Assembly (NCBI RefSeq): GCF_032854445.1
Contig: NC_088297.1
Span: 17,619,127-17,683,126 of the forward strand
DNA length: 64,000 bases
Direction of reading: 5' to 3'
Origin: Liolophura sinensis
Taxonomy: Eukaryota > Mollusca > Polyplacophora > Chitonida > Chitonidae
The notes beneath the pieces are model-generated. The model was given only the letters and a program-made list of their open reading frames with translations. It made no database searches and was not told where the DNA came from. This document shows, piece after piece, positions 1-22,924 of this stretch. The number at the start of each line of letters is the position of its first letter. Position 1 is the stretch's first letter. Made by a program: the position numbers and the translations under genes.

Positions 1-4
1 TGAG

Positions 5-361
5 GTGTATTACCGCAGGTATCTGGAGGAAATGGAGATGGAGCCGAGGTATTTCCGCGGAGTACCCCTCAGTACGCTGGACACGGTGGAAAGCCAGTTT
101 CAAGTGAACATTCAAGTCTACCAGCTCATCCCCATGGATAGGTCGTACTCAGCACAACTCATTCACCGTAGTGCCGAGCGCTATTCTCCCCCTACCCTGC
201 GGTTAAACCTGTACCAGCGGCATTTCAGCTATATCAAAGACATGGGGCGTTATGCTCGATCTTTCACCTGCCAGGTGTGCCAGAAGAGTTTTCGGACACT
301 GTGGGAGTTACGACGGCACGGTCAAACGTGCACCGACGCCATTCGACGACCACCTATTTAG
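5..361 (+). pseudogene. N-terminal zinc-finger fragment of a protein-primed-type DNA polymerase B-like protein (deletion derivative)
   Basis: The open frame runs in from the window edge, so the true start is not visible. Its residues resemble the N-terminal region of the large PolB-like proteins of Polinton/adintovirus-type elements: a GVPLSTLDTVE segment, a strand-rich NIQVYQLIPM segment, then LYQRHFSYIKDM followed by one C2H2 finger (CQVC ... HGQTC). Right after the finger the frame jumps into a sequence that is also present at the extreme 3' end of the second polymerase copy (ACCTATTTAGATCT, 350-363 here and minus strand near 8698-8711). That copy reads it in another frame as the last codons of the polymerase. 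So the whole exonuclease and polymerase core has been lost by an internal deletion. The family call is from memory of such proteins. The deletion junction is seen directly. Confidence 0.6.
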
Positions 362-442: not shown

Positions 443-486
443 GGCCCTTTTCAGGGCCAACCAACTCTTCCCGAAAGAGTACTTTC
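443..486 (+). terminator. Histone-mRNA-type 3' stem-loop plus downstream purine element, copy 1
   Basis: GGCCCT-TTTC-AGGGCC at 443-458 is a six-base-pair stem with a four-base TTTC loop. This fits the metazoan histone 3' processing hairpin (GGYYYT-TYTN-ARRRCC). It is followed by AACCAAC and, 12 bases after the stem, by CCGAAAGAGT. That block resembles the histone downstream element that pairs with U7 snRNA. It lies about 85 bases after the stop of the polymerase-like frame, which is a normal place for a histone-type 3' end. The same block recurs on the minus strand at 8593-8629 and 11196-11234. Function is inferred from the consensus match. Confidence 0.75.
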
Positions 487-561
487 TCAATCTAAGCACT
501 AAAAAAAAGTGGATAGGTTTTTTTCCACTTCATGTAGATAAGCGTGCGAGAACGAGTTATG

Positions 562-1030
562 TAAGGAGGACTATTTAGCGTGGGCGGATGGTGATGGGAG
601 TGGTTAGGTCATGGGTGATATCACTACGCGTGTCTCAGACAACGTAATGATGCTTGTTTTATTTTTGCATATGTATACTTTTTAATTCAAGCATTAAGTC
701 ATTTGAAAACCTGTAGCTGGAAGGTGGGTTATTCCACATTCTTGTTAACATTTGGCAGTGAAGTGGAAGTACAGATTTATTTTTGTTGTCCCCTATATCA
801 CATATGGTCTTATCGCTACATGTACGACTCAACATTATTCAAGAATTTATGAGACACGCGCATAAATGGTTATTCATTCTTGAATTGCCTTCGTCATTCA
901 AAGGTTAATCAGGAGCTTTTCGGTAATTTGGGCTGCCCTTCCCAAGATGCAGTCATTTTAATCTGCTCTGCTGTGTTTGCCTTATTTGCGCATGGCTGGG
1001 AGTGAAGTCACACTTGTGACGTGTCAGGTG
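562..1030. other. Non-coding stretch, nothing recognised
   Basis: This AT-rich DNA has no open frame with coding character on either strand. I see no repeat shared with other parts of the window. It lies between the 3' end of polymerase copy 1 and a promoter-like block. Confidence 0.4.
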
Positions 1031-1034
1031 TGTG

Positions 1035-1310
1035 TCAGGTAGTGGTGGTGGTGGGTTTTTTCCACGACGGGGTGTGTATACTAGAGTAGAGTGTAGTATA
1101 ATAGAGTATAGTATAGGGGCAGTGGTGGTAGTGGGAGTGAAAAAAAGAGGCAAAACGTCGGCTTGTAAAGTTGAGTGGGACAGCTCGAAAAGAGCTCTTT
1201 GTCGCCAAAAACGAACCAATGGGTGAGCGGGATTTGCCCCAAAACGGACCAATGGATGGCCCCCAAAACGGACCTATCCGCGCGCGAGAATGGTTGGAGA
1301 TGGAGATTGC
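1035..1310 (+). promoter_or_regulatory. Promoter-like block of the virus-like element
   Basis: A segment GGTGGGTTTTTTCCACGACG followed by TATACTAGAGTAGAGTGTAGT (1048-1100) is closely matched at 10793-10865, in the second cluster of the same element. Further on are two CCAAT motifs (1215 and 1248) and the phrase CTTGTAAAGTTG, also found at 10446. The clustering of CCAAT motifs before an exon-like segment suggests a promoter. No clear TATA box with a fixed spacing to an ATG can be assigned. Confidence 0.35.
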
Positions 1311-1332
1311 TTTTTTTTTTTTTTTTTTTTTT
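1311..1332. repeat. Poly-T tract
   Basis: An unbroken run of 22 T. It lies about 60 bases before a TTTTTTACAG acceptor-like site at 1390, so it may be part of the pyrimidine tract of an intron. Confidence 0.8.
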
Positions 1333-1390
1333 GTTTTGTTTTTCCCTTCATACATTCTCGTTTTGTTTTTACCTATGTGTGTTTTTTACA

Positions 1391-1488
1391 GGGAGATGAC
1401 TAGGGTGGTGCGCGTTATAAACATTGACCAATGTCGGGACTTTCATATTGGCGATACAATCGTCATCACGAGACATATCTCACCGTGA
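1391..1488 (+). CDS. Terminal exon-like ORF with a RHIM-like motif
   Basis: An excellent 3' splice site (TTTTTTACAG) ends at 1390. The exon then opens with GAGATGACT and codes for about 30 residues ending at TGA 1488. The residues INIDQCRDFHIGD line up with the RIP-homotypic interaction motif core. In animal RIPK1/RIPK3 and in herpesvirus inhibitors this core is a V/I-Q-V/I-G-D/A/S centre with an N-C or S-T pair upstream. Here the central Q is H (FHIGD), while the IN-I, the C and the IGD are in place. RHIMs form amyloid-like complexes in necroptosis and innate signalling. The exon sits in the virus-like cluster. The upstream exon is not identified, and translation from ATG 1396 alone would give a 30-residue peptide. 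The motif call is by eye. Confidence 0.4.
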
Positions 1489-1642
1489 CACCAAAATAAT
1501 GGACACTTACAGCATGTATTTATTCGTTCATTCGTTGATGTGTTCACTGTTCGAGTTCGAAAAAAATAAATAAAAAAAGTTTTCAGGTTGACGACCCTGG
1601 TCTTTGTGTTGGTTATTGTCTTTAACTGTTGGTGAAGGGATA

Positions 1643-1669
1643 GTCTATCTATCTATCTATCCATCTATC
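1643..1669. repeat. (ATCT)n microsatellite
   Basis: About six imperfect tetranucleotide units CTAT/CATC between two exon-like segments of the virus-like cluster. Confidence 0.8.
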
Positions 1670-1748
1670 GTTTTGATTGATGTGGCTAGGGTTCGGTCGG
1701 TGACGGCATTAGAATGACGACGGTGTCTTCCTTTATGTCTTTTCTAGC

Positions 1749-2045
1749 CTGGCGAAGCTCCGTACAACACCGCAATGGAAAGACTGGGTAGCTGTCGTCA
1801 CCGACCTGCAAAGCTACACCAGGGTACTTCGTAGTATGTTTGCGGATGGTAGGGTGAACGAGAGCCGACTGCAGGTGCTGCGAGCGTACACTGAAGACGT
1901 CTGTCAGCATGTCGAGGATTCCCGACCTATTCAAGCGTATTACGTAGAGATTGTTCGTCCCACGTTAATGTACGAAGTGCGACTCCCTCCCAACCACACA
2001 GAGGTCTATCAACGCTCCGTGTTACATACCTGTACATTGCTGTAA
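1749..2045 (+). CDS. Exon-like open frame, unknown protein, virus-like cluster
   Basis: A strong acceptor (CTTTTCTAG) ends at 1748. The following frame stays open for 98 codons to TAA 2045. In-frame upstream of the acceptor there is a stop, so splicing or an internal ATG at 1836 is needed. The peptide starts near AKLRTTPQWKDWVAVV, is rich in predicted helices, carries acidic and Trp residues, and ends in CTLL. Codon use looks coding (many G/C third positions) and differs from the AT-rich flanks. I do not recognise the family. Position after the RHIM-like exon suggests it belongs to the same element. Whether both are in one transcript cannot be told. Confidence 0.4.
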   Translation: MAKLRTTPQWKDWVAVVTDLQSYTRVLRSMFADGRVNESRLQVLRAYTEDVCQHVEDSRPIQAYYVEIVRPTLMYEVRLPPNHTEVYQRSVLHTCTLL

Positions 2046-2123
2046 ATAATAATACTGTTACCTTACTATGGAATCCATCCCCTGTTTTTGTGTTTTCTTT
2101 TTTTTTATATGGACTGGGTCAGT

Positions 2124-2186
2124 GTGTCAGTGTGTCAGGCTAGGGCTGGTATCTATCCCGATAGCTCCTATGTATTATGTATGGAC
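2124..2186 (+). repeat. Left terminal inverted repeat
   Basis: This is the partner of 7943-8009. The outer 16 bases are identical except the last. The block GGGTCAGTGTGTCAGGCTA also occurs at 8397-8415, and its reverse complement at 8258-8275. So this terminus belongs to a small repeat family. Confidence 0.65.
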
Positions 2187-2482
2187 GCACCAGCTGGCTG
2201 GAAGAACTGGAATCTCGTACACGTTTCTGGTAGAGTAACTTCCCCTGAAGAAACTGAAGAGGGCGTTCGAACACTGAAACAGCGCCCTCTGCTCGGCGTG
2301 GAAAAAAATTGTGCGGTGGTTTGGATACAGATTTGACCGATACGGTAGTGTATTTCACATTGACGACTGCGCCTTTAATATTACGTTGTTCAAGCGCAAT
2401 GGAATTTAACGGTCTATGCGAGTAGATTCAAGAGTTGCGGCACTTACACTGGGCGTCTCTGAGTTGTCTGAAAAAAGACTTC

Positions 2483-2506
2483 CGCCACGAGGTGGCGCTT
2501 TTTTAC
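2483..2506. other. GC hairpin followed by T-run
   Basis: CGCCAC-GAG-GTGGCG (2483-2497) is a perfect six-base-pair hairpin followed by CTTTTTT. It sits about 50 bases before an unclassified ORF. A further inverted pair, AGAGGGCG (2258) and CGCCCTCT (2284), lies upstream. The role is unknown: an RNA structure, a polymerase III stop or a chance palindrome are all possible. Confidence 0.45.
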
Positions 2507-2555
2507 CCTATGTATTCTGTGTCAAGCATTTACATACAAGATTTATCAGAAACTT

Positions 2556-2903
2556 TTGAATATGGTTGAGGTCTTTCAACCATCAGCTACTGTAACAATT
2601 TTTTGCAATTTAAAAAAACTGAATAACAAGTTCAAGGCAAGGAATGTCCATAAAAGGCTAGATGAATATGATTTAAAAAGTTTTGTTAGCGGATTGTGGT
2701 CTTTTGAATTAGCTTTGCCACAATCACTGCGAATGGATGTAGTGCTGCATGATGGCACCTTCACTCCGATATTATTTCATGGTCACTATTATACAATCAT
2801 GCATCCTTGTGTTTTCTGTCGATGCACACCTGAGGCACTTACAGGGTGTCTCCCAGTGAGTCTGAAAGACAGACCTCAACAAATATGCGCGCAACGATTT
2901 TGA
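2556..2903 (+). CDS. Unclassified ORF, weak resemblance to rolling-circle replication proteins
   Basis: An open frame of 115 codons. The stretch TIFCNLKKLNNKFKARN, then KRLDEYDLKSFVSGLWSFEL and ALPQSLRMD, is arranged like the central part of gene II/X-type (Phage_CRI-like) replication initiators. In those a YNK-LKE segment precedes a helix and a LRFEV(R/T)LRS strand. Eukaryotic Replitron transposons carry relatives. No HUH motif is visible in this frame, and the start is arbitrary. The resemblance is at the edge of what can be seen by eye. It may equally be random open DNA. Confidence 0.2.
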   Translation: MNMVEVFQPSATVTIFCNLKKLNNKFKARNVHKRLDEYDLKSFVSGLWSFELALPQSLRMDVVLHDGTFTPILFHGHYYTIMHPCVFCRCTPEALTGCLPVSLKDRPQQICAQRF

Positions 2904-4860
2904 TAGCCTGACATATTTATTAGCAGCCTTCCAGTCTCGAGGATCATCTCCACATGTTGAAATGAAACCAACCTTTAATGGCGACCATGCCCTGTATTTG
3001 ACCAATGCCTTACATACTAATTCATACCATTCGATTCTGTTTAAAATTTTACAAAAGTGAACTAGTGAGTTTTGACCAGTCAAGGAGAACGCTAATGATT
3101 AGGAGTATTGATAAGACTACTCGACTCTTACATTGGTTGCATAAACTGCTAGAACTTATGTGGAACTGAGGGCCTCACCATCGACAGCCATTTTGAAATG
3201 TCAAATGATTTGCATATGGGTTTGAATTGTAACCAAGCTCTGGCATTGAAATCCTCCAGAAAACTGTCATATTTTCACTGCTGTCTGCAGGCACAACTTC
3301 AGTCTTCATAATCCAACCCAGAAGGGCGTAAAAAGAACGAGTGGCATCAGCATGGACCTCATGGTGCCATCAGTTTGACGTTCAGAAGTGTGCAGCACAT
3401 TTCTTGAGAGTAATGGAAAGATGAAGTTAAATTTGAAAAAAACATACCAGATGGACTAGGGTGCTGTAAAAGCGACAGATGAGCCGAACAAAGTAGTAAT
3501 AGCATGAAGTCCATCTGATTGTATTAAGACAATCCCTACAAATCTGTTTAGTAGATGTGTACATGAATATTAAGTCCTTGTTTCTGGTCATCAGATTTAT
3601 GTAAGAGGATGTGGACAGACCAGGGTCACAGCCTTCACTATTGATTTTTTCACGACTCAAAGTACAAAGTCCCATTATCACACACATCAGCACCTGGAAT
3701 TATTTATGAATGTATTTATGGACACTGTGTAAGTTACCTGCTCTGAAGTGTGACCCAACAAGTAGTCTTGAACCAGACTGTGCAAGTGGGTGCAGGTGTA
3801 CCTACCTTGAATTTCCGTCCCTAATGATGGATGCAATCAGTTGTGTTGCTACTGTAACAACTCTCTTCTAGGCAACAGAATGGAAAAAACAAAACAAAAC
3901 AGGACATCCATTGAAAGCCACGCCAAGAGATTCACATGCCTACACACAAAAAACATAACTAATAAAAGTTTATCGTTAAATAATGAACTTTCATTTGTAT
4001 TCAGGTGATAGCGAGCTTTCTGATTGGTTATTTTTTTGCATTCCTACCATGATGAACCCCAAAAAATATTTATGCTCTGCCACGTCCAGATTACTTTTAC
4101 TAAAAATATACAGGACCAGGCCCATGTAAAACATGTATTTTCAATCTGTCGTATACAAACTTTTCAAAAATAATTCAAACCACCAGCAATCTTCATACCT
4201 CATTTGTGCAAATAAATTTGATGACCATAAGTACATTCATACAGTTCACACAGCATTATTTTTGTTCATAACAAAAAAATTACATTCAATCCTTAAATAA
4301 CTTCTAAGGTAGACTCCATGTTGGTAAACTCAGGGGAGGTAATTCAGTGGCATCCTGTACATTATTACCAAAATGTGGTCATGTTTTGAGTGAAAGTATA
4401 GTTTTTCGATCAGCTGTATAAAAAGATGGAGACTTCAAAAGCAATTTAATCCTCAAGCTTTGCCTCTTGTATGCATTCCATGATTCTGACTGGATATTGG
4501 TTTTTGTACTGCTCATTATATAGTCTAATTTTATTTAATTTTGTATGTTGCTTCATTTTGGGAACCCTTAGATTTGATTTGCATATTTTTTGCTGTAATA
4601 TGATTATCAAAAACGGTGGAGGGTGGGTCGGGCTAATTCATATTCGCAATATGAGATTGTAACAAAGATTGAAACTCATTATTTGTGTGTCATACTGGGT
4701 ATATAACCAAAAATTTTAAGGAAATTCAGAATACAGTGTGTTTAGTGTCATTATGTATGTATGGTTTAGACAGATTTAGACAGCGCAATATGTTCCATTT
4801 TCTTAAGCTGTTACAGATCTGGTCTACTGTAAAATCATTGACTGTTTTTATTGTTGACAG
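2904..4860. other. AT-rich stretch, probably upstream or intronic to the BTB gene
   Basis: No convincing gene. On the minus strand 3180-3365 stays open for about 60 codons with coding-like composition (for instance ADATRSFYALLGWIMK, then PADSSENMTVFWRISM). Neighbouring minus-strand frames at 2772-3083 and 3427-3693 are also open. They may be remnants of one decayed minus-strand gene that I do not recognise. The rest of 3700-4860 shows nothing. A TTTTTATTGTTGACAG acceptor closes the stretch at 4860. Confidence 0.35.
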
Positions 4861-7838
4861 AAGTCTAGCGGCAACATGGCTGGTATTGACCTCAACTGGT
4901 GTTGAGAATCAGCAGTACCAGAATATTTTGCCGACCAATGTACAGAAACTATGGAATAACAAACAGATGCTGGACATAACATTCCGGGCCGATGGTCAGG
5001 AAGTGCAAGTAAGCTTTTAGAGGCTTTCTAACTTATCGACCAGTGGTATTTAGTAGTAAACCTATAATAGCTTGCTTCACAAAATCACTCCTAGCATTCT
5101 AAACTTTTTATAATACTGCGCCAGTATAATGCATTCTGTATTTGTAATCAAGGTAATTTTTAGTGTTCATAACACTAAGTTTGCTTTGTGAATCATGCGT
5201 TGGTCAGTGGGAATTTTGAAATGGGACGTATTACATCGTTCTAGTGATGTAAACATTTTACTGTATGAGCTGACTATGCAGGTCATAAATAGAACTGTAG
5301 CATGCAACATGTTTGACATTGTGCGGTATAAATCTACAAGTCCTGATTGACTGCATCACCCCTTCTGTGATAGAAACAGCCATTGATATCCCATTGCCAC
5401 ATAAATAATGCGCATGTGAGATCAGCAGTGAGATGATAGGACATGGCCACCTGTTTAATTACAAGATAGGTGTGTTTAAGTTTCACATAAATTTTTGGCT
5501 AATTTCAGACAGGGAACTGTTTTGTTGTACTTCCGCGCCTCCTTTATTCTTTGAGCATTGGTAGTACACGGTAATGTTAACATAAGTCATAACATTGAAC
5601 AGCATAAAATACCAGTCAAATAAATAGATAAGATGTAACATTGATGATTTTTAAGAAGTGTGTTTTCTGTTGCAGGCACATCAGCTGGTTCTGGCAGCGG
5701 CGAGTAACGATCTCTGTGATGCCCTCAGTCAGATCCGGAAAACCACAAAACATGCTGTGCTGGATCTGAACAGATCAGGTATTACTATGGCAGACCTCAA
5801 GGAACTTCTTAACTATCTTTACTGTGGTAAGATGCAGTTAAACCCACAGACGTGTCAGGGTGTAGCCAAGGCAGCCAAAACCCTTCACATCCCTCAGGTG
5901 GTGGCTCTCTGTGCACTTTTCAAAGCCACATTCATGCCAGGAACTCCACTAGCAGACTCTCAGATAGGTGTGACCAGTCAGACTCCATTTTAAATGACAT
6001 GTGGAAAGTAGGGCAGACAAAGGAAGTAGCTACAACACATGCATCAAGTACCAAGTCCAGCCCTAAGCCTGGCCCCAGCTTTGTACCCGCACCGCCGGTC
6101 ATTGACCAGTCCACGGTCACAAGCCTGACAGAAAGTAAGATCTCACCCCCTGTGGATAAAGTGGAGCTATACAGAGAACTGACAAGTCACAAACAGAAGT
6201 GGATGGCTGATGCCAGGCCTCTACCCGTTCCCAACAAGATAGAGCCAGCTGATGAATCTTCCGAGAACTTTGCTGGGGCTAAACCAGGTAAGAATTCCAC
6301 CGCGGTAAAACCTACCCAGGATTTCAAAATGGTAAAAGTTAAAGAAGAGCCTGTTGACGATTTTCCAGACATGTCCCCAGCTGCCAGTGTCACCCAGTCT
6401 AATGAGTCTGCTGGTAAAAGTGGAACAAGTCCCAACATCGTACAACAGGTCACAGACATGAACTCAGTCATTCCAAAGGTAGATCCCAGCTTCTTGGCTG
6501 ACATTGGTGATGTCAGTGACTCAGATTCCATAGGCTTGGGAGGTGACACTGCTGATTTGAGTAACAAGGAGAAGGCCACCACAGTTAATCCGCTACCTTG
6601 CCTTGTTAAGCAGGTCGCTGCATTCGGTGCAGCAGCAACTAAACCGCACACGCCTCCTGTGTACTACAAATATAAGCGAAGGAAGCAAAGGCGAGGAAGA
6701 ACTCACTATGTTAAACCTCAAACCATAGAGCCTGTGGATTCTGAGCCTGTCAAAAAGCAGAAGAGAGATACAGAGCAGACTAATAACCAGTCTGTGAGAA
6801 TTGTACATGCGCCTCTACCAACAGGTGCTACTCTCGTCAAACCATTTGCTGTCACCTCGAATGGCAAGACAACAACAGCAGTAGAGAAGTCTATTGACGT
6901 AAGAAACACAGAAGAGGAGACTCTACCAAAGTACCCCTCCTTTCCTTCTACCAGCGGCGACGCCCAGCTCAAGACCTATGTTCAAGTTGTAAAGCAGCAA
7001 GCTACAACGACCACAGAAGTGAAACAGTCTAAAGATCCTGCCACTCTTATCAGCAAGGGCGTGATCAAAACCACGATACCTGCAGCACCAGCAGCTGCGG
7101 CAGCTATAACTGCTGTCCCGTCAACCTCTGACACAGATCACCAGGGAAGTACTGAAGCTTTGGCGTCGTGCTTTGTACGGGCACGGGGCATAAAAAATTA
7201 CAAAAGTTCGTACAGCACACCGCATTCATTGAGAAATTATGATGCCCCCAACTCAAAATACAGGGATGTTAGCCTGGGAAAAGATGCAATGGACAAAATA
7301 GCAAACAAGGATGGGAAAAAACTGATACTACCATCATCTGTTGTGAGAAATGGTTGCAAAGGGGGATTTCATATCTCCTGTATCCTCTGTCATTTTTTGT
7401 TTAGTTCTGTGGAAAGTTGTGAGAAGCACATTCTTCGTAAACATTTCCCAGGTGAGCTGATCTTTGCAGACACTAAGGAAGGACAAGAAAAAGTCGAGCT
7501 GGAAAAGAACACTCCTGAAGATAAAAAAGTGATGTTTCTCTGCTCTTGTTGCTGGTATGTCACCCACAATGAGAGGTTTTATCCACCTCCACAGATTCTA
7601 CCAACATGAGGTGCCCATTCTCAAGAACATGATAGAGCCGTACTGTGAGGCTTGCGAGCTGTTACTGAACAATGACACGGACATGGAGGCTCATCAGAAG
7701 CTGCACTGTAATCACTACATTTGTAACACCTGCTACAAACGCTACATTTGCCTTGATGCCCTCCGCCATCATGTCAGGGAGGCACATAACATCCAGGGCA
7801 ATACTGAGCTGTCCATTCGTCAGGTTACGTATGACTGA
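4861..7838 (+). CDS. BTB/POZ and C2H2 zinc-finger protein gene, frame broken in three places
   Basis: Likely nuclear transcription regulator. Exon 4861-5010 and exon 5676-7838 join at a phase-0 GTAAGC...TTGCAG intron. The BTB domain runs from NILPTNVQKLW across the junction (VQ|AHQLVLAAAS) to LCALFKATF. A long Ser/Pro/Thr-rich linker follows, with a SUMO-type site (VKVKEEP near 6335) and a basic nuclear signal (KYKRRKQRRGR near 6668). The C-terminus has four C2H2 fingers: C-x2-C-x12-H-x4-H near 7375-7440, a second across 7540-7600, a third near 7645-7710 and a fourth near 7730-7790. Breaks: the natural-looking start MAGIDLNW at 4875 is out of frame with the BTB. The frame also shifts at a T-run near 5990 and at another T-run near 7580. 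Either it is a recent pseudogene or the homopolymers are miscounted. It lies between inverted repeats (2124 and 8009). Confidence 0.75.
5011..5675 (+). other. Intron of the BTB gene
   Basis: The donor is GTAAGC directly after GAAGTGCAA and the acceptor is TGTTGCAG before GCACATCAG. It interrupts the BTB fold in phase 0. Nothing else is recognisable in its 665 bases. Confidence 0.75.
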
Positions 7839-7942
7839 ATAGGAACAGCCAATAAGTGCTCTCAGTCATTTAGGGCTCTCCATCACTTACAATCACATCT
7901 TTTTACATATGTGCATATGTACATATGTTCCGCTAAAAATTT

Positions 7943-8009
7943 ATATAATACATATAATACATAGGACCCATTCCGATAGATATCAACCCTAGCATGACAC
8001 ACTGACCCA
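7943..8009 (-). repeat. Right terminal inverted repeat
   Basis: The reverse complement matches 2124-2186 in order and spacing. It starts about 105 bases after the stop of the BTB/zinc-finger frame. Confidence 0.65.
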
Positions 8010-8011
8010 TA

Positions 8012-8160
8012 CTATTGGCGATCGTCTCAAGGATGGTAAATGAGTACCCGATTTAAATAACAACAAATCATAATTAATTTTCATGGGATATTGTAAATTA
8101 AGTGAAATAAAGTAATACAATGTGTTTAAATGAATTGTGACATGAGTTTGTATAAAATTA
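8012..8160. repeat. Repeat shared with 36830-37600 in permuted order
   Basis: 8017-8050 (CGTCTCAAGGATGGTAAATG) matches 37549-37585. The adjacent 8062-8150 (AACAACAAATCATAATTAAT onward) matches 36831-36918 almost base for base. In the second locus the two blocks are 700 bases apart and in the opposite order. Confidence 0.7.
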
Positions 8161-8239
8161 AAAAAGAGACTATGAGACTCACATACCGTGGTGGTTTGAC
8201 TTCTTTCTTTTTTTATTATGAGGACTACCACAACAGCAT

Positions 8240-8425
8240 GCAGGCCAGCTATAGCACACTGACACACTGACCCAGTCACCGCCTGTTACATCGTCATACA
8301 TTGTTGCGTCATACATTGTTACCAGGCCGTCTGCGGTATACCGGCAAGGCACCGCTCGGCAACAATGTATGACGATGTAGCAGGCACGGCAAGTCGGGTC
8401 AGTGTGTCAGGCTATTACGGCTGCC
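8240..8425. repeat. Inverted-repeat (MITE-like) cluster
   Basis: The outer parts are CACACTGACACACTGACCC (from 8259) and GGGTCAGTGTGTCAGGCTA (8397-8415). The inner arms are GCCTGTTACATCGTCATACA (from 8281) and its near reverse complement TGTATGACGATGTAGCAGGC ending near 8387. A second CATACATTGTT copy lies between. The outer part is the same terminus family as 2124 and 8009. It may be a foldback element or two abutting element ends. Confidence 0.6.
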
Positions 8426-8592
8426 GGCCCGCCGCCCCCCGCTAGGCGTTTTTAACTTTTTAACGTATGTACCACTGCGAATGATAAAACACATGAAAAA
8501 AAATTGTACAATTAAAAAAAATGGGAAGACTGTGTCTGGTGTGGGGCTTCTTTCTTTCTTTCTTTTTTTTTAGTGCTTAGATTGAGAAAGTA

Positions 8593-8629
8593 CTCTTTCG
8601 GGAAGAGTTGGTTGGCCCTGAAAAGGGCC
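8593..8629 (-). terminator. Histone-mRNA-type 3' stem-loop plus downstream element, copy 2
   Basis: On the minus strand the hairpin GGCCCT-TTTC-AGGGCC occupies 8629-8614. It is preceded by CCAAC and followed by AACCAACTCTTCCCGAAAGA. It lies about 70 bases after the stop of the polymerase C-terminal frame. Sequence around it (CTATGGATACTCTACACACC before, TCAATCTAAGCACTAAAAAA after) is shared with copy 1, so the two polymerase copies had the same 3' end. Confidence 0.75.
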
Positions 8630-8697
8630 GTTGGAAGTGTCACAAGAGCACAAGAGCACAGGAGCCGGGTGTGTAGAGTATCCATAGCACCGTTCTA

Positions 8698-9345
8698 TAG
8701 ATCTAAATAGGTGGTGCTCACCCCGTCGGGGAGCACTTTTCGCTTCCCGTAAAAGTATGTGAATGCGTCTTTGTGTTGGGTATACGAGTACATCGTATTG
8801 CCCCGCATCCGCATTCCCCGATTCACACCACTCGCGCATTGGTGGTCGCGCAACCCAGAGAGGTACAGAGCCTTGTCCACACCTCGTGCGCTCACACCTT
8901 TGCAGGAGAGTTTGTCTTGTTGGATGTGTTGGATGCCCCGTCGTAACAATAATAAGTCTTGGAACACAAACTGACGATGGCATCACCGGTCCACTCGACT
9001 TTGAAAAGCCCCGGTGTGCGCTTATCGTGGTCGTAATGGTCGCGACGGGGTAACCACGCATCCCGCTCGGTCTCGTACAGGGCTCGCAGCTCGGGTTTGA
9101 CGAGGGATTCCCAGTCTGGATCAGACCAAGCCATGTACGCAGAGTCTGTGTCCATCTCACAGTACTGCCAATCCGCCTTGTCGAAAAAACGAGCCATGAA
9201 ATCGTAATAAAATTCCAGCATGCGGAGTTTGGCATACTGGTAGACCATGCACCCTATTTGCTAGGGGAGATTGTAGCGAATGGTCTTCTTGCTACTCGTC
9301 ACTTCAAAAGTGGTCTCGTCGATGGGGTCGACGGATGCAGGGTAG
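8698..9345 (-). pseudogene. C-terminal part of a protein-primed-type family B DNA polymerase
   Basis: Read from 9345 towards 8698, the frame contains VYQYAKLRMLEFYYDFMARF and then CEMDTDSAYMAWS. DTDS is the metal-binding motif C of family B polymerases. Downstream are the segments LFKVEWTGDAI and, after a frame change near 8900, GNTMYSYTQHKDAFTYFYGK, ending at a stop in TAG 8698-8700. These segments are typical of the C-terminus of Polinton/adintovirus-like and related protein-primed polymerases found in many invertebrate genomes. Damage: an in-frame TAG just before the VYQYAK segment and at least one frameshift between 8890 and 8970. The upstream end stops at a terminal repeat (9340), so motifs A and B are absent. 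It would replicate the element's linear DNA if intact. A dead copy here. Confidence 0.7.
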
Positions 9346-10697
9346 GCTTGTCAGTATTAGACATATATACATAGCAGGTGTGTTGAACATAACCGCGGCT
9401 GGGAACAATGTAGCGTCACGCGCACGGCTCAGCCAGGCCGACGATCATGATCTATGATGTCCAATAATTATTGTTTTATTCCAATTTACATAGAAAAGGC
9501 ACCAAATCCAGAGAATAGGACCACAGAAACGTGTAAGGCAACATATAGGTAAAAAATAAGCTGATTGAAAGCTGGTTGAACGATTACCTGGAACTGTTGA
9601 CATTTCTTAATGGATATTAATACACTCGCTCATAACTACATACATGTATATACTGAATACGTTGTACGTGCAGGCCTGTGTACATGTACATGATTTATAT
9701 ATGTACATTTATTGTGCGCATGATTTTTTTGGAAACGGACCCTGAGATGACCAACGCTGAATGCGGAAAGCAACTACTCATACATGCACATGATTCAACA
9801 TTTGGACTTCAAAGACTATCCCCAAAGTCAACATACTCGTCGTTATTTAAAACGAAATAGTATGCAAAGAAACGAAAATGAAAAAAACTCAATGCCTACC
9901 AACAAAAATGAAAAATGTCAACTGGCCGGTATGGGGCTCGAACCCGTGACATTCGCGTTATTAGCCCATTCGCGTCATTCGCTCTGCCGATTGAGCCAAC
10001 CGGCCATTCGTGCAATACGGTGGCTTTTCAATCTCCATAATCAAGCAGCGCCTGCTGTATACGTATATCAGGCAGCGGAAGATCAGGTCTCCGTGTTTTA
10101 AAAAGATAATTTTTAAATAAATTAAAATAAAAATTGATTCTCATCAAGAATGTTATTTATTTTCTGGGCCGTTTATTCGCGTACCTCTAGGCTGGAATAT
10201 TCGACCTTATAGACGGGTTGATTATATGAAAGAACCCACAAAGAACTAACAAAACCAGTAGAGCATTATAATCCTGGTTTATTGTCCGTGTAGACAAGGC
10301 GAGTGTATACATCAGACTGATACGGAGTTTGTTTGACTTCAGTTTTGGATCCACTGTCTATACATCAAAACCTGAGTCTTAGAAAAGATAGCGCTGTAGA
10401 GTGACGTACCACCGAGGTGATCGACCTTTTATAGGACAACCCCGGCTTGTAAAGTTGGAGGGAAACGCAGGGCGCGGGCCTAAGTGAGAGCACTAAAAGT
10501 GATGTATCATTGGCGGGCATGTTTTCATATATCCATCTCGGCTACATTTTCCCGCGCGTTTCATACAGAATCCTCCGCCTGGCAGAGCTGTGCGCGTGAC
10601 GCTACATTGTTGTCAGCCGGGGTTGTGTTCACCTCGCCTGCTATGTATATATGTAATATATGTATATATGTCTAATACTGACAACCCTACCCTGCAC
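9340..10697. mobile_element. Non-autonomous element bounded by CAGTATTAGAC inverted repeats
   Basis: The left end (9340-9440) reads GCAGGGTAGG, then TTGTCAGTATTAGACATATA, then CATAGCAGG, and GAACAATGTAGCGTCACGCG. The reverse complement of the right end (10545-10697) gives the same order, with a GTATATATG insertion. The body holds a tRNA-Ile-like sequence and no coding frame. A third copy of the right-end sequence is at 12835-12969. It abuts the truncated polymerase, so it could be a deletion derivative of the same virus-like element. Confidence 0.5.
9924..10005 (-). tRNA. tRNA-Ile(AAT)-like sequence, probably a pseudogene or SINE head
   Basis: On the minus strand, acceptor arms GGCCGGT and ACCGGCC pair over seven bases. 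The D arm is GCTC-AATCGGCA-GAGC, the anticodon loop reads CTAATAA (anticodon AAT), and the T arm holds GGGTTCGAGCCC (B box). This matches the known animal tRNA-Ile plan. But about eight extra bases (GAATGACGC) before the anticodon stem, seemingly a local duplication of the later CGCGAATG, spoil the anticodon stem. It lacks an encoded CCA, as expected. Confidence 0.5.
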
Positions 10698-11118
10698 CGG
10701 CTGCACCGACTGACCTGCCTGCCTACCTCCCACCAGCCTGCATTGGAAATACATAAGTAACAGCAATACGTTATACACACACAAGAAATTTTGGTGGGTG
10801 TTTTCCACGCCGCGGGATGTATGTGTATATACTAGCGTGATATAGCGTGTAGTAGACTAGAGTACAGTATAACAGTATATGGAATATAGATATAGATAGA
10901 TAAATAGAGAAAACAGTGGTTTGTTTGTTTCAGGCTGGGTATAAATTAGGCAGAGTTTTAAGTAACACCAATACATTACGTAAATACACAAGACAAGGGG
11001 ATGTAGATATAGATAGATAAATAGAGAAAACAGTGGTTTGTTTGTTTCAGGCGGGTATGAATTAGGCAGAGTTTTAGGTGGAGTAGAAGGTTAGGAAGAC
11101 TTTGAGGATTTGGGATTA
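10698..11118. repeat. Promoter-like block and a 120-bp tandem duplication
   Basis: 10793-10865 resembles the block at 1048-1110 (GGTGGGTGTTTTCCACGCCG, then ATACTAG...AGAGTACAGTATA). Next, a segment with GATATAGATAGATAAATAGA, GAAAACAGTGGTTTGTTTGT and TTAGGCAGAGTTTTA occurs twice (10886-10962 and 11004-11074). No gene is seen. Confidence 0.55.
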
Positions 11119-11195
11119 AAAAAATAAAAAGGGAGACTGTGTCTGGTGTGGGGCTTCTTTTTTCTTTTCTTTTTTTAGTGCTTAGATTGAGAAAG

Positions 11196-11234
11196 TACTC
11201 TTTCGGGGAGAGTTGGGTGGCCCTGAAAAGGGCC
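11196..11234 (-). terminator. Histone-mRNA-type 3' stem-loop plus downstream element, copy 3
   Basis: Minus strand: AAC before GGCCCT-TTTC-AGGGCC (11234-11219), then ACCCAACTCTCCCCGAAAGA. It lies about 120 bases after the stop of the RING-finger ORF, with the same flank AATCTAAGCACTAAAAAA as copies 1 and 2. So two different genes of this element family, polymerase and RING protein, end in the same hairpin. Confidence 0.75.
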
Positions 11235-11264: not shown

Positions 11265-11358
11265 TTTTTTCTTTTTTTTAAACAGCCATTTTTTTCTTTT
11301 TTTAAACAGCCATTTTTTTCTTTTTTTCTTTTTTTAAACAGCCATTTTTTTTTTTTAA
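11265..11358. repeat. T-rich tandem repeat
   Basis: Four units of roughly 25 bases, each with TTTAAACAGCCATTTTTT. It sits between the RING stop and the stem-loop, so it would lie in the 3' untranslated region on the minus strand. Confidence 0.75.
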
Positions 11359-12065
11359 ACAACAAATACGAATAAAAAACGATTAAAACAAGACTGACAA
11401 ACAATTAAAAAAAAGAGAGGAATAATACGTAAAATGTACAAATTACAAAATGGGCACCGCTGGGGTGCGAGACGACGAGCACAGGTAAGGCAGATCGCTG
11501 CATGCCCACAGGGTAAGAGACACGCATCGGACACTCTTACATAACAAATCCGACACTCACGTGTCGGAAAACCGTCGGATGTGTGTCTCCTCCTCCTCCC
11601 CTGTGGGGAGGCAGCAAGTGCCTCACCTGCACCGCTCTCAGGTGATGGTGGGTTGGTTGGTGGTGGGTCGGCTGTTGTTGATGACGCTGGTGCTGGTGCT
11701 GGTGTGGGTGGTGCGGTTGGTGGTGGTGGTGGTGGGATCGACCCCGGAGCTGGCGTCAATGGTATCGCTCCCACCGCCGAGGGGATTAAAAACCACTGCA
11801 GAGGAGGGTCGACTCGCAATCGAGCCTCAGTGTGGCGAACTAAGGCTCGCCTATCCTCTAGGCTGATATAATTTTGGGAATTGACAGGCCTCACCTCCCC
11901 CGCTTGCTCGACTGGTATCTGTGGCTGTGGAGCTGTCGCTGTTGGTTCTTCAACCCCACGGCGGGTGTCACCACCCCGAGGCTGGGGTGGGACGTGAGCT
12001 CGGGGCCGACCCCGACGAGCGGATAGCCAGCCAGGTGGTGGTGGAGTTGGTGTTACTTCCATCAA
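11355..12065 (-). CDS. Proline-rich protein with C-terminal RING finger
   Basis: 236 codons from ATG 12065. Residues 1-150 are Pro/Ala/Thr-rich with low complexity. Residues about 168-210 form a C3HC4 RING: CRIC, LLPCGHAAICLTC and CPFC, closest in spacing to IAP/MDM2-class E3 ligase RINGs, which many large DNA viruses carry. A basic patch QGRRRRHTS precedes the RING. Expected role: a ubiquitin ligase acting on a host factor, by family knowledge only. It follows an acidic ORF on the same strand with a 45-base gap and is followed by histone-type stem-loop copy 3. G/C-rich codons contrast with the AT-rich flanks, in line with a foreign origin. The frame is intact. Confidence 0.6.
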   Translation of the reverse strand: MMEVTPTPPPPGWLSARRGRPRAHVPPQPRGGDTRRGVEEPTATAPQPQIPVEQAGEVRPVNSQNYISLEDRRALVRHTEARLRVDPPLQWFLIPSAVGAIPLTPAPGSIPPPPPPTAPPTPAPAPASSTTADPPPTNPPSPESGAGEALAASPQGRRRRHTSDGFPTRECRICYVRVSDACLLPCGHAAICLTCARRLAPQRCPFCNLYILRIIPLFFLIVCQSCFNRFLFVFVV

Positions 12066-12110
12066 CCGCTCACTCTCGCCGTGGTCTGGATTTGGACTCC
12101 CACGTAGTCG

Positions 12111-12689
12111 TTATTCATCCTCCCATTCGGTTATATCGTCCAGGTCAAGCCGCCGGGGTAGCCGCCGCCCGACGCCTCGCCCCCGGGAACTCCTCGGTCT
12201 GAAGAACCGATTAATATTCGGTTGGGTTAAACGCCCCTCCCGGACGAGGGTTATTAATTCGGCTAATCTACCTCGCCCACGCCCGCCCTGGGTGTTTGGT
12301 GATGGTGGTTCGGTGGTGGTGGTGCTGGGAGATGTCACCATAACTCCCTCCCTCACTCGACCGCACCCGGCGCAGGTGCAGGGCTCAGCTCGTCTTCCCC
12401 GGTTGGGGTTCAATTCCAGCTGGGGCTGTTGCTCGGGTCGTTCTGTATTTTCCAGCTGGTGGTGTTGTTGTTCGGTTGTCGGTTCGACATTTTGGGTAGT
12501 AGGTTGTTGTTGCTGTTCTGGTGACTCTGGTGACTCTGGTATGACGATTGTTGGGTCGGACGGGGGAGACCAAACCCAAGCTTCTTCGTCGTCACTATCC
12601 CATGGTGATTCCTCACTCTCTGAGGTTGTGGCCCACTCATCGTCGAGATCTCCCAAAAAAAGAGCCATAATAATAAACTGTCGATACAA
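12111..12689 (-). CDS. Acidic, glutamine-rich protein of the virus-like element
   Basis: 192 codons. The N-terminus is strongly acidic (SESEESPWDSDDEEAWVW), like an activation domain. The middle is Gln/Thr/Pro-rich. A short CTCAGCGR cluster could bind zinc only with a partner. The C-terminus has basic Arg-Gly stretches (GGRGRGR, RSSRGRGVGRRL) and ends acidic (ITEWEDE). The better start may be the second Met (position 8, MALFLGD). A TATA box at 12740-12748 and a CCAAT box at 12801-12805 lie correctly upstream on the minus strand. I do not recognise a family. The acidic-basic layout suggests a nucleic-acid or chromatin-binding regulator. Confidence 0.5.
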   Translation of the reverse strand: MYRQFIIMALFLGDLDDEWATTSESEESPWDSDDEEAWVWSPPSDPTIVIPESPESPEQQQQPTTQNVEPTTEQQHHQLENTERPEQQPQLELNPNRGRRAEPCTCAGCGRVREGVMVTSPSTTTTEPPSPNTQGGRGRGRLAELITLVREGRLTQPNINRFFRPRSSRGRGVGRRLPRRLDLDDITEWEDE

Positions 12690-12737
12690 GCTGTCGATAA
12701 TTTGTACTCAGTCTGACCAACTCAAATCCGCGGTTAT

Positions 12738-12969: not shown

Positions 12970-13513
12970 ATCGGCTGGTGGTTGTGATTTCTACGTGTAT
13001 AAGTGTCAATTAAATAAGTGGTCATTGTAGGCTTAGATGTCTTCTTTTCTTCCCTGAACCCGCTTTGCTTCTTGAAAGTTAATTTAAGACAGTAAGAGCT
13101 ATCTCATGTTACATGTTTGTAACAGTATATGAAAAAGTATGAAAAACTTTTTTACTGGATAATTTACTATCCACAGCTGAGATCGTTAGATTTCTTATTG
13201 AAATAACAGTAGTTTTAGTTCAATATATTTAAGGATAGTTGTGTCTTTTAATAGTTTGTAACTCCAGTAAAGCTAGACAGAAAGCCTGAGTAGCTTAGAG
13301 GATATTTCCTTATTTATTTCGTAGTAGAAATCCACGAATGTGTGCGGTGTCAAATGTATGTAAACAAGGGGGCTAACTCCTGATGGAATACGCTTAGCAG
13401 GGGCGACTACTTTTGTTGGAATAATGGAAATAAGGGGATATTTGAAGTTAAAAACAAGTGAGAAGCGATTGCTTAATTTTAACGGTGAATGATTCAGTGG
13501 CTAAATATTTACA
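12970..13513 (+). other. 5' leader or remnant LTR region of the gypsy element
   Basis: No gene. 13188-13450 is repeated in reverse orientation at 37090-37310, for example GTAAACAAGGGGG with AACTCCTGATGGAATACG. This marks it as part of a retrotransposon leader or LTR. A clear LTR boundary or primer-binding site could not be fixed. Confidence 0.5.
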
Positions 13514-14837
13514 ATGGGAGATTTTGATCCTAAACAGTTTGTTAATGCGCCCGATCAGGATGTTTTTGAGAGTTTAAAGAAGGAAGACTTGGTTAAGTTA
13601 GGGACATTTTTAGGTTTGTCCGTAAAGTCTTCATGGAGGAAAAGAGATATGCAGTATACTTTGTTGAAAAATTTAGTGGACATAGGGAAGTTTGATAGTT
13701 CTGCATTATCTGATTATGAGTTCGAGGGTCAGTCTGATGCCGAGCTTAAGTTTAAACAGTTTGAGTTAGAAAAGTTGAGATTGGAGAAAGAGGAAAGGGA
13801 AAGAGAGAAAGAGAGGGAATATGAGGAAAAAAGAGAAAGAGAGGGAACATGAGTTACAGTTAGAGAAGTTGAAAATGCAGAGAGAGGAGAGAGAGAGGCA
13901 AGAAAGAGAGAGGGAAAGAGAATTGGAGTTCGAAATGAAAAAGTTAGAGGTAGAGAGAGGTGAGAAACCGGGTCCTTCCGGTAGACAGGATTCAGGATTT
14001 GATGTGACCAAATACATTCGGTTAGTTCCATCCTTTCAGGAAAAAGAGGTGGATAAGTATTTTCTGCATTTTGAGAAAATTGCAAATAGTTTGAAGTGGC
14101 CTAAAGAGGTCTGGACTATGTTATTACAGAGTGTGCTAATTGGAAAGGCTAGGGAAATTTACACTCAGTTAAGTGTAGAGAATGCTTCCAATTATGACTA
14201 TGTGAAAGAGGTAATTTTGAAGGGTTATGAATTGGTGCCTGAAGCTTACCGCCAGAAATTTCGTAACTATGAAAAAGGTAGAGATCAGACATACGTTGAG
14301 TTCGGTCGAGCTAAGGAGCAGTTGTTCGATCGCTGGTGTACAGCCAAGAAAATAGGCAAGGATTTTGAAAGTTTGCGTCAGCTTGTGCTGGTAGAAGAGT
14401 TCAAGCGTTGTATTCATAATGATGTAAAGGTGTTTGTTGATGAGCAGAAGGCTAGTACACTTGAAGAGGCAGCCAGTTTAGCTGATGATTATTCCTTGAC
14501 ACATAAGGTTACATACACGGGTAAGCCATTTAATTCATTTATACGTAGAAATACCCAGTCACATGCAACAGGTAGAGGTAGCTCTATACAGAAGAGTTCT
14601 ACACCAGGCTCCAATGGTTCTACAGCTCATGGTTCACGTAGTTCAGATTGGAATGGTAGTCCTCGAAATAGGGTCACTTTTAATTTTTGCAAGCGGGTAG
14701 GTCACGTGATGAGTGAATGTTACAAGTTGAAAAGGATACGGGAAGCTCAGAATGAGCCTAAGCCCACAGGTCTTTGTGTTACAATGCACAAAACATTGCC
14801 GGAAGTTACATCAGCAGTTAAAAGCAGATCTGAGTAA
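13514..14837 (+). pseudogene. gag of the gypsy element (one frameshift)
   Basis: The N-terminal part (13514-13850) has a SAP-like helix pair (SLKKEDLVKLGTFLGL) and then a long Glu/Arg/Lys coiled coil. The frame slips by one base in the GA-rich tract around 13825-13850. The second frame to 14837 carries the capsid-type domain (KYIRLVPSFQEKEVDKYFL, MLLQSVLIGKAREIY, EEFKRCIHNDVKVFV) resembling SCAN/gag domains. A zinc knuckle at about 14685-14725 reads FCKRVGHVMSEC. Its first cysteine is replaced by Phe, so the CCHC box is incomplete. Gag packages the RNA in cytoplasmic particles. Confidence 0.7.
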
Positions 14838-14843
14838 GCTGAT

Positions 14844-16004
14844 ATGGGATTGGATAAGATTCCCAAATGCTCTATGGATAGCTTCGCTCCGTTTATCAAT
14901 TCTGGTTCAGTGTCGCTTAGAAGCGACATGTCTGGTGCTACCCCTATAAAGATATTAAGGGATACTGGGGCATCTCAGTCTCTGTTGTTGATGAATACTC
15001 TGCCCTTTTCTGAAGAGTCGTACTCTGGGGTTCGTGCCCTTATTAGAGGTGTAGAGTCTAGTGACTTTGTCAGTGTTCCCCTTCATGATATTTATTTGTC
15101 ATCAGATTTGATATCTGGACCTGTCAGGGTAGGCATTAAGCCTTCATTACCTTTTGAGGGTATTCATTTGTTGTTGGGAAATGACTTAGCGCATGATAAA
15201 GTTACTGTTGATCTCTTAATGGTTGATAAGCCTTCTCTGAATTCAGTCACAGAGCCAGTTGAAAGCGAGATAGCGGGTTTATATCCGTCCTGTGTTGTTA
15301 CAAGAGCTATGTCTAGAAAAGTCAGTACGGACCAGGGTAGTACTGTTGATTTGAGCGAGACTTTTCTCAACAACATGTTGGATGGAGATTCTTCCAAATT
15401 AGACAGCCAGCAGGAAGTAGATACTAATTTTGTTAGTGGTGATCAGCCATTTTGTAGGACTGAGTTGATTGCTGAACAACACAGTGATCCAAGTATTTCT
15501 TGCTTGTTTAATGATGCAGCTAAAGATGGTGAGTCTTTACCTGACCCATGCTACTACTATGTCAAGTCTGGCATATTGATGCGGCAGTGGAGGCCTCCCG
15601 ATGTTTCGTTGGAGGATGAATGGGCAGTTAAGCATCAGGTAGTTGTGCCCAAGTCTTATCGTAAAGACATACTGACTATAGCGCATGAAACGCCGTTAGC
15701 AGGTCATTTAGGTGTTAATAAGACCTATCATAAGATTCTCAGTCATTTTTATTGGCCAGGAATAAGGAAAGATGTTACTGAATTTTGCAGGTCTTGTCAT
15801 GCATGTCAGTTAGTGGGGAAACCTAACCAGACAATCCCCAAGGCAGCCTTGAGGCCTATTCCTGCAATTGGTGAGCCATTCAGTAGAATCTTAATAGATT
15901 GTGTTGGTCCGCTACCTAAGACAAAGTCTGGAAATCAGTATATGTTAACTATAATGTGTACTTCAACTCGTTTCCCTGAGGCAATTCCACTAAGGAATAT
16001 TACT
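14844..16004 (+). pseudogene. Protease and N-terminal integrase of the gypsy element
   Basis: A retropepsin with LRDTGASQSLLL (DTGA active site, near 14955) and the flap-like LLLGNDLAHDKV. It is followed by a linker and, with no RT in between, the integrase zinc domain (HETPLAGHLG, then HFYWPGIRKDV and CRSCHAC near 15680-15810) and the start of the core (RILIDCVGPLPKT, first catalytic Asp near 15898). The frame is cut at 16005 by an inserted LTR. Frame relation to gag: a stop and shift at 14835-14844. Confidence 0.75.
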
Positions 16005-17027
16005 TGTTATGTATGACTATTTAACGTTTTCATGTACTGTTAGTCTGCGGACCTTTGTGTTATATGTTGAAAGCATAACAGGCCGTGTTATATATGTACA
16101 GCGCGGACCTGGCCGAAAGCACCTTGTTCAATGCTCTGTTTATTTAACTGGCTGTTCATTGGCTGTTAAACTCTGTGTTTAAAAATAGTTGAATCCACCT
16201 GGCACGTATATAAGCCGTGTTTTCTGTGCAGAGAGGAGATTTTTTTGCTGCATCCACTGGGAGCCAGGAGAGTGTGCGACGCTCTCGTATCGAGTCCATT
16301 ATATTTATATGAGCTGGTGATGCCAGTTTCATTTGGGAGGACAGATTTTTATGCCGGCACCGTTTGTGTACCACAGTAGTACTGATGTCTGGTTTATGTG
16401 AATTTCTGCGGAAGTCACGTTTATTGGTGTTCGGATCTTTATTATGACTATACAGTGTGGACTGTGTAATTTGTTTAACACGCTGACCGCACCTGACCGA
16501 CAAGGTCGTCAAGGACTCTAAACTGAAGTTTTCAGTTTTGCAAAGGACGTTCGTTCTGCCACAAGGTGACATTACTCTACGTCTCTGAACGGCTCGTTTG
16601 TGAGCTTCTGCGGGAGCTGTGACTGATCTGAAGTGGATTATACCTCCATGCCTGTATTTACCCTGTGTTGTGCTCTGCGGGTGTGACGTCATTCAAAGGC
16701 TTGACTGTTCCAGTTCTGTGTAACCTGTGTACTGTGTTCGCGTTCGCTAACCTGGCGAAGTACCTGTCTGGGACAATTTGTAACTTGTGTGAATTGTGTG
16801 TTTATCCCATGGTCTTTACGTTGGAGCTCCTGGAACACGTTCCTTGGGATGCAAAGGTGAACTGGAAACTTTTAAAGACCGGTAATACTGATGTGTATGT
16901 TTTTTTATGTTGTTGTTGTTGAACTGTCTGTAAAACTGTACGTCTCATTTTATATATATAGCATTGTTTACATTGTAATATTGAGTCACTGAGTCTGTTT
17001 TCTGTTGCCGTTTTCAATACCGTAACA
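16005..17027 (+). mobile_element. Solo LTR inserted in the integrase
   Basis: It starts TGTTATGTATGAC and ends CGTAACA (TG...CA), 1023 bp, flanked by the direct repeat TACT at 16001-16004 and 17028-17031. Its first 35 bases equal the start of the host element's 3' LTR at 18504, so it is a relative. It contains a reversed CCAAT box (16158-16162) and a TATA box (TATATAAG, 16207-16214). The integrase reading resumes directly after the second TACT. Frames inside the LTR are not genes. Confidence 0.85.
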
Positions 17028-17819
17028 TACTGCCAAGACTGTAATTAAGGCTTTAGTTAAGTTCTTCACCATGTTTGGTCTGCCTAAATCAGTACAGTCA
17101 GTTGGTGTGTTCCAACAAGTTATGCATGAGCTAGGTATTAGCCAGCATAAGTCCTCAGCTTATCACCCACAAAGTCAAGGAGCACTAGAGAGATTCCATC
17201 AGACACTGAAAAGTATGATAAGAACTTACTGCTTTGAGACAGGGAAAGATTGGGATGAGGGTGTACCTTTGTTAATGTTTGCTGTAAGAGAGTCTACAAG
17301 AGTCACTTGGATTTAGTCCATTTGAGCTTGTGTTTGGCCATACTGTGCGTGGCCCACTACAGTTGTTCAAGGAAAAGTTTGTGTCTGGTGATAGTGACAA
17401 TGTTAACCTATTACAATATGTGTCAAGTTTTCGTACTAAGCTCAACAGAGTATGTGAGTTAGCCAGAGAGAATCTTACAGCTTCTCAGAAGAGTATGAAA
17501 ACTAAGTATGACAAAGACAGTAAGACGCAGATTTGAAGTTGGTCAGAAGGTATTGGCCTTACTTCCAGTTAGTGGTAAGCCACTTGAGGCTCGTTATTTT
17601 GGACCCTATGTAGTAGACAAGAGGCTAAGTGATCTTAATTATATTATTTTCACTCCTGATCGGCGCAAATCTAGACAACTTTGTCACATTAACATGTTAA
17701 AGCCATATGTAGACAAAGATAGCACTGATCTCAATGTTGTACATCCTAGTGGAGTTGCTATCTCTTGTTTTCCAGTGCCAAGTTGTAAGAGCGCCATAAG
17801 AGTTGTAAGAGAGAATTAA
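17028..17819 (+). pseudogene. C-terminal integrase of the gypsy element
   Basis: The core continues as LVKFFTMFGLPKSVQS, but the usual DxGxxF segment with the second catalytic Asp is missing between KSVQS and VFQQVMHEL. HPQSQGALERFHQTLKSM holds the catalytic Glu. A frameshift near 17305 breaks the frame and another lies near 17520. The end has the GPY/F module (GKPLEARYFGPYVVDKRL, about 17575-17625). The frame ends at TAA 17819. Confidence 0.75.
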
Positions 17820-22160: not shown

Positions 22161-22175
22161 ACACCATCTGGGAGG

Positions 22176-22868: not shown

Positions 22869-22924
22869 TGATAAAAAAGGTAAAACAAGATAGGAATATA
22901 TATTTATATTTTATAAAGGATACA

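Follow-up and report, generated by a model that had tools for sequence, protein, structure and literature searches.

We analyzed a 64,000-nt stretch of the genome (609 Mb) of Liolophura sinensis, a chiton (C3:17619127-17683126, hereafter the window), in which remnants of a Maverick/Polinton carry three exact copies of a histone-type hairpin, GGCCCTTTTCAGGGCC (GGCCCT-TTTC-AGGGCC). Comparison of these copies with others in the genome makes it likely that a Maverick/Polinton of this species ends two of its genes, those for a viral-type DNA polymerase (PolB) and a RING protein, with a complete host-type 3'-processing site of replication-dependent histone genes, and that it uses the route through SLBP and the U7 small nuclear ribonucleoprotein (snRNP). 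According to an excerpt of PMC9756948, replication-dependent histone pre-mRNA carries a hairpin and a downstream element that act with SLBP and U7 snRNP; it is cleaved there, chiefly during S phase, to give an mRNA without poly(A). The identity of the element, the anatomy of its site, the match to host histone genes, its confinement to two genes (as read in one full-length copy) and the conservation of the site are all read from DNA sequence.

Histone-type 3' ends in the window and across the genome

The sequence-only reading of the window had listed three perfect hairpins, and all three are exact copies at the positions and on the strands it gave. The relevant features of the window are as follows, where L-numbers such as L028 label the individual genomic loci or sequence pieces compared in the analysis and an open reading frame is abbreviated ORF.

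443..458, plus strand: histone-type hairpin, copy 1; exact match, folding into a 6-bp stem and a 4-nt loop
471..479, plus strand: CCGAAAGAG, the histone-downstream-element-like block of copy 1; like words occur in host histone genes
492-499, plus strand: CTAAGCAC of copy 1, 3' of CCGAAAGAG
2..361, plus strand: N-terminal PolB stretch with a C2H2 finger; sub-threshold in Pfam, matching L028 4029-4373 and 1052-1202
8614..8629, minus strand: histone-type hairpin, copy 2; exact match, Rfam RF00032 34.6 bits
8593..8601, minus strand: CCGAAAGAG of copy 2
8695..9330, minus strand: C-terminal PolB fragment with a broken frame, ending TTYLDL; polymerase profiles match the PolB half of L028
8259..8410, minus strand: imperfect palindrome past the PolB 3' end, where two transcription units converge; self-inverted match 71%
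11219..11234, minus strand: histone-type hairpin, copy 3; exact match, Rfam RF00032 38.4 bits
11198..11206, minus strand: CCGAAAGAG of copy 3
11355..12110, minus strand: ORF with a RING finger, covering the C-terminal part of the gene; PF13920 9.8e-11
12111..12707, minus strand: acidic ORF directly upstream of the RING ORF; the acidic and RING parts form one ORF in L028 (6453-7778)

Allowing up to three mismatches, we found four hairpin matches in the window against 0.15 expected, a number reached in 0 of 100 shuffles. Copies 2 and 3 pass the gathering score of Rfam Histone3 (RF00032, cut-off 34), while copy 1 was not listed. The distance from stop codon to hairpin, put at 70-120 bases by the sequence-only reading, was close to that estimate but begins slightly lower, at 65 nt for copy 2 (in the TTYLDL frame), followed by 81 nt for copy 1 and 120 nt for copy 3. 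AC or AAC precedes each hairpin, as that reading had noted, and AACCA (copies 1 and 2) or ACCCA (copy 3) follows it; the block it had placed at histone-downstream-element distance, CCGAAAGAG, begins 12 nt past the hairpin.

The three copies also share 3' untranslated region (UTR) sequence, over 160 bp between copies 1 and 2 (92.5%) and over 127 bp between copies 2 and 3 (92.9%), and window 8152-9334 is 95.7% identical to L028 629-1816. By alignment, window 2..361 is a deletion derivative in which an N-terminal PolB stretch is fused to the final codons of PolB and its 3' UTR. The expectation of a mobile element encoding a polymerase and a RING protein holds for the Maverick/Polinton, which carries both genes, but not for 443-11234 as a unit: the pieces in the window are, on the same comparisons, decayed remnants from several insertions and of more than one copy.

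A genome search for the hairpin and a comparison with the chiton's own histone genes, both proposed in the sequence-only reading, were carried out. The exact hairpin occurs in 146 copies (77 + 69) genome-wide, compared with 0 for a backwards control. Among the 63 distinct sites that were read, 26 are host histone gene ends, 31 are PolB or RING ends of one Maverick/Polinton family, 4 belong to a second repeat family and 2 are others. The 31 family-1 sites comprise 17 PolB ends, two of which (window copy 1 and L049) are fused derivatives, and 14 RING ends. Histone genes (H1, H2A, H2B, H3 and H4) were identified from short motifs or by visual inspection; L013 was assigned to H1 on the basis of a site identical to that of L011, and the H3 frame of L022 is broken. 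Five copies (L023, L024, L027, L028 and L029) have the site at the PolB end as well as at the RING end, though some of the RING frames are broken. The two remaining sites, L051 (C4:6297973) and L060 (C6:8885598), have the exact hairpin without the downstream element and without a recognized histone or element gene, and are probably chance occurrences.

At the host H1, H2A, H2B, H3 and H4 genes, the exact hairpin is likewise accompanied by a CCGAAAGAG-type block and a CTAAGCAC- or CTGAGCAC-type word, and the element site follows the same order of hairpin, AACCA/ACCCA cleavage region, CCGAAAGAG and CTAAGCAC. The element has the layout of the histone mRNA 3'-end signal (SLBP hairpin and putative U7 downstream element), with the host hairpin exact, a similarly spaced block and CTAAGCAC downstream, but places it on genes for a RING protein and a DNA polymerase of viral type. 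When 66 nt of the L028 sites were compared with 22 rows (21 distinct sites, including L016 of the second family), likeness was 74-88%, the best being one H2A and two H2B genes. In a Rfam RF00032 scan across 11 loci, 8 RING ends were listed. The distance from stop codon to hairpin differs: the commonest PolB form has 65 nt, and RING copies whose C-terminus is whole have 90-186 nt, compared with 24-50 nt in the host histone genes measured.

These likenesses bear on whether the hairpin could instead be a viral DNA or RNA element, for packaging, replication or export, that resembles the histone hairpin by convergence. A second palindrome does lie beside the PolB end, but the likeness to the host covers hairpin, spacer, downstream element and CTAAGCAC, and Rfam Histone3 matches were obtained; we consider convergence highly improbable.

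A full-length Maverick/Polinton and its relatives

The carrier of the site is, judged by its gene content and ends, a Maverick/Polinton of the polintovirus type with PolB and a RING gene. A full-length element of about 19.8 kb lies around L028 (C4:17768492-17788331). Its terminal inverted repeats (TIRs) have AGTAGT//ACTACT ends, with AGTAGTTAGG starting at L034:493 and CTAACTACT finishing at L035:332, and were identical at 332 of 332 aligned bases in the one copy tested; a 6-bp target duplication, CAGGCC, flanks both sides. An excerpt of PMC8097293 gives TIRs with (AGT)2//(ACT)2 ends and a 6-bp target site duplication for Mavericks. The element encodes an integrase with a chromodomain (rve 4.6e-11, Chromo 4.2e-10), an ATPase-like protein (Adeno_IVa2 2.2e-4 and Pox_A32 3.8e-4, both under the curated cut-offs; PHROG terminase 0.0035), a protein with a sub-threshold match to Adeno_PX and, at L034 8583-9947, a member of the F54H12.2-like capsid family. 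One of four scanned F54H12.2-like members, not the chiton one, was matched by DJR-like_dom PF21738 (1.5e-7), and a 15-member profile of the family gave no PDB match. For an adenovirus-like cysteine protease, there was no Pfam protease match among nine L034 ORFs and no PHROG match for two of these. With PolB, the rve integrase and chromodomain, the sub-threshold A32/IVa2 ATPase, the F54H12.2-like capsid protein, the TIR ends and the 6-bp duplication, the chiton element resembles known Maverick, Polinton and adintovirus types, and it differs from known Mavericks/Polintons in the histone-type 3' ends of PolB and RING.

The C-terminal half of PolB in L028 matched DNA_pol_B_2 at 2.7e-5 (23.7 bits, against a curated cut-off of 25.8) and a PHROG DNA polymerase at 2.1e-5; a PDB sequence search with this half returned Vsr endonucleases only. 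A stretch like Vsr mismatch endonucleases lies inside PolB (L028 1182-3086, minus strand, residues 137-236), with matches to PDB 1odg, 1vsr and 1cw0 at E about 1e-5 and to a PHROG endonuclease at 0.00039. Among the 7987 candidates sharing most words with the RING protein, we found five relatives, all from Liolophura and 34-54% identical. An LXCXE motif was absent from four RING-gene ORFs. The sequence-only reading had proposed that replication and regulatory genes are tagged in this way; PolB bears out the first part, while a regulatory role of the RING gene is a guess.

PolB and RING diverge from a shared center, near which TATA and CCAAT are present and uninformative, and a convergent neighbor meets the PolB 3' end; C2H2-finger ORFs on the minus strand lie past the RING end. 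Neither L034, a 10-kb piece with the structural genes, nor L035 contains the hairpin at up to two substitutions. On the structural side, AATAAA signals follow ORF469 and the integrase, and another follows the late end, on the late strand ahead of the convergent PolB end. A sequence similar to the window palindrome (8259-8410) is also present in L028 at about 730-930; the palindrome, with the PolB hairpin on one side and the poly(A) signal of the late genes on the other, may be an origin, insulator or terminator.

A RING-less Maverick form is represented by L067 with L075 (C3:16.32 Mb), whose PolB end keeps the hairpin, and L068, L070 and L071, with element-end sequence at the expected position, are consistent with this form.

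The second repeat family, which carries the hairpin and a block like the downstream element, comprises L016 (C1:80.83 Mb), L058, L059 and L064 (C6:2.42, 4.75 and 34.57 Mb). L064 has similarity to the PolB N terminus (42% over residues 56-167, 5e-20) with in-frame stops, pointing away from the hairpin. Because of this similarity, the second family is probably a diverged Maverick lineage. The nearby pieces L076 and L077 contain no hairpin.

Three further observations concern other parts of the window. Positions 9923-10005 (minus strand) are tRNA-like (Rfam tRNA 36.9 bits) and not called by ARAGORN, probably the head of a short interspersed nuclear element. A BTB/POZ stretch (PF00651 1.4e-11) followed by a long open frame at 5655-7609 (plus strand) is probably a host gene between element pieces. 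Retroelement ORFs at 13505-18355 and 19104-22910 correspond, by ORF inspection alone, to a Gypsy-like region and to a non-LTR (long terminal repeat) reverse transcriptase with endonuclease.

Conservation of the site and competing explanations

Because copies were picked by their hairpin, we used the 42 nt after it as the test of conservation. At the RING ends (n=14), mean p-distance was 0.010 in these 42 nt compared with 0.255 upstream (coding sequence and 3' UTR); between 54 and 94 nt past the hairpin it was 0.096. In the 54 RING pairs with an upstream distance above 0.2, the core distance averaged 0.0155, with a maximum of 0.048. In these RING copies, the site is, by aligned sequence, much better conserved than the sequence on either side of it. 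Across the 17 PolB copies, 29 pairs had an upstream distance above 0.2, with a mean core distance of 0.217; every one of these pairs includes L048 or L049, and the 14 distant pairs without L048 (all with the fused copy L049) had a mean core distance of 0.007. In a 12-copy PolB set, diversity was 0.008-0.030 in the block compared with 0.105-0.115 beyond it. The word GAAAGAG is kept in 28 of the 31 family-1 sites and altered in L020, L029 and L048.

Several points weigh against use of the histone route by the element. The copies were chosen by an exact hairpin, so the conservation figures cover the following bases and not the hairpin. PolB copies are mostly young, with distances of 0.023 upstream and 0.014 in the core for the 91 pairs without L048 and L049, and PolB diversity is also low upstream of the hairpin, at 0.020-0.047 from -100 to -11 (0.020-0.067 from -150 to -11); the PolB side therefore contributes little. 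All seven PolB ends scanned across the 11 loci fall under the Rfam RF00032 cut-off. The downstream block of L048 is deleted, leaving a core distance of 0.41 to the others. We examined eight expected other-end places without an exact hairpin, which were picked for that absence and so give no unbiased rate. The L069 RING end has a C-A mismatch in the stem, with GAAAGAG intact; the L074 PolB end lost its site in a deletion of about 410 bp; and at L072 and L073 no element end was seen at the expected place. A RING-less form of the element exists, and histone-type ends on element genes were observed in one genome alone. Counted from the start of the hairpin, AATAAA or ATTAAA occurs at +402 to +425 in 10 of 12 PolB copies; among RING copies, 5 of 10 have one at +206 to +250. 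A poly(A)-type signal also precedes the hairpin at the RING ends of L028 (by 116 nt) and L033. The sequence-only reading had named other copies lacking the hairpin as grounds for giving up the idea, and this is partly what was found, in that L074 lost the site, L048 the block and L069 an intact stem.

Such losses would also fit a histone 3'-end fragment that had been captured and copied along with the element, functionless, as a passive repeat. The cassette's 74-88% likeness to host histone ends fits this explanation, and the two cassettes of L028, one at PolB and one at RING, show 94.5% likeness over 109 bp, so a single capture followed by duplication within the element is likely on that account. 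A passive fragment would not, however, readily explain why, in many copies, the site is oriented with the transcript and lies 65 to about 186 nt past the stop codon of only two genes, why the RING processing block is near invariant while both flanks diverge, or why the site is also present in the second family. We regard a passive fragment as quite unlikely.

Given the poly(A)-type signals around the hairpins, a poly(A) route may be used. In this case, the hairpin would serve only as a fail-safe that stops transcription where genes converge, or as one of a pair of alternative ends, with most PolB and RING mRNA polyadenylated downstream. Besides these signals, the convergent neighbor opposite PolB is consistent with such a role, and an excerpt of PMC9756948 describes human H2AC18 as using both routes. 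However, the whole histone block is conserved, including the U7-type part, which a plain terminator would not need, and the downstream signals may be inherited in common by close copies and so carry little weight. A terminator or alternative end is, in our view, rather unlikely.

Predicted processing, novelty and meaning

We thus favor use of the histone processing route by the element, in which a full host site on a gene would lead to processing as for a histone mRNA. The hairpin would be bound by SLBP, and U7 snRNP would pair with CCGAAAGAG, the U7 5' end being expected to read CUCUUUCGG or close to it. The histone cleavage complex would then cut 3' of the hairpin, and PolB and RING mRNA would exit lacking a poly(A) tail, with stability and translation largely confined to S phase. 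For a virus with its own polymerase, the gain would be expression while nucleotides and replication factors are available. An alternative setting would be germ and early embryo cells rich in SLBP; SLBP-rich oocytes and early embryos fit equally well as the site of expression. The element would have two mRNA classes, one replication-linked (PolB and RING) and one ordinary (the structural side, with AATAAA). Cleavage, the lack of poly(A), S-phase timing and the early/late split of element mRNAs are what we infer from these sites. A broader proposal, to which we give even weight for and against, is that this Maverick lineage sorts its genes by 3'-end class, with PolB and a fast-evolving companion using the S-phase histone pathway and structural genes using poly(A), as a cell-cycle-gated early/late program that the second, diverged family would share.

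No Maverick, Polinton or adintovirus with histone-type 3' ends came up among the matches listed from the open literature, and excerpts of PMC11071296, PMC8097293 and PMC4028283 contained nothing on such ends under the words histone, stem-loop and polyadenylat. In IMG/VR, a C-terminal piece of PolB gave two pattern matches, neither confirmed, and the C-terminal half gave no match; the pattern of hairpin plus downstream element gave 5 matches, 0 with the 5' arm, and a generic hairpin pattern gave 11, of which 0 reach Rfam Histone3. Two IMG/VR sequences, L041 and L045, match the 16-mer exactly but lack GAAAGA within the 46 nt inspected, and are not relatives.

To our knowledge, replication-dependent histone mRNAs are nearly the sole animal mRNAs without poly(A). 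The histone-type ends suggest that PolB and RING are made chiefly while the host cell copies its DNA, and such a tie to S phase through a histone 3' end would, as far as the literature was searched, be new for Mavericks. If this is correct, a DNA element that borrows the histone 3' end for its polymerase ties its own copying to host DNA synthesis, key element mRNAs would escape poly(A)-selected RNA sequencing, and the chiton Maverick would provide a direct test case for S-phase sensing by nuclear DNA elements.

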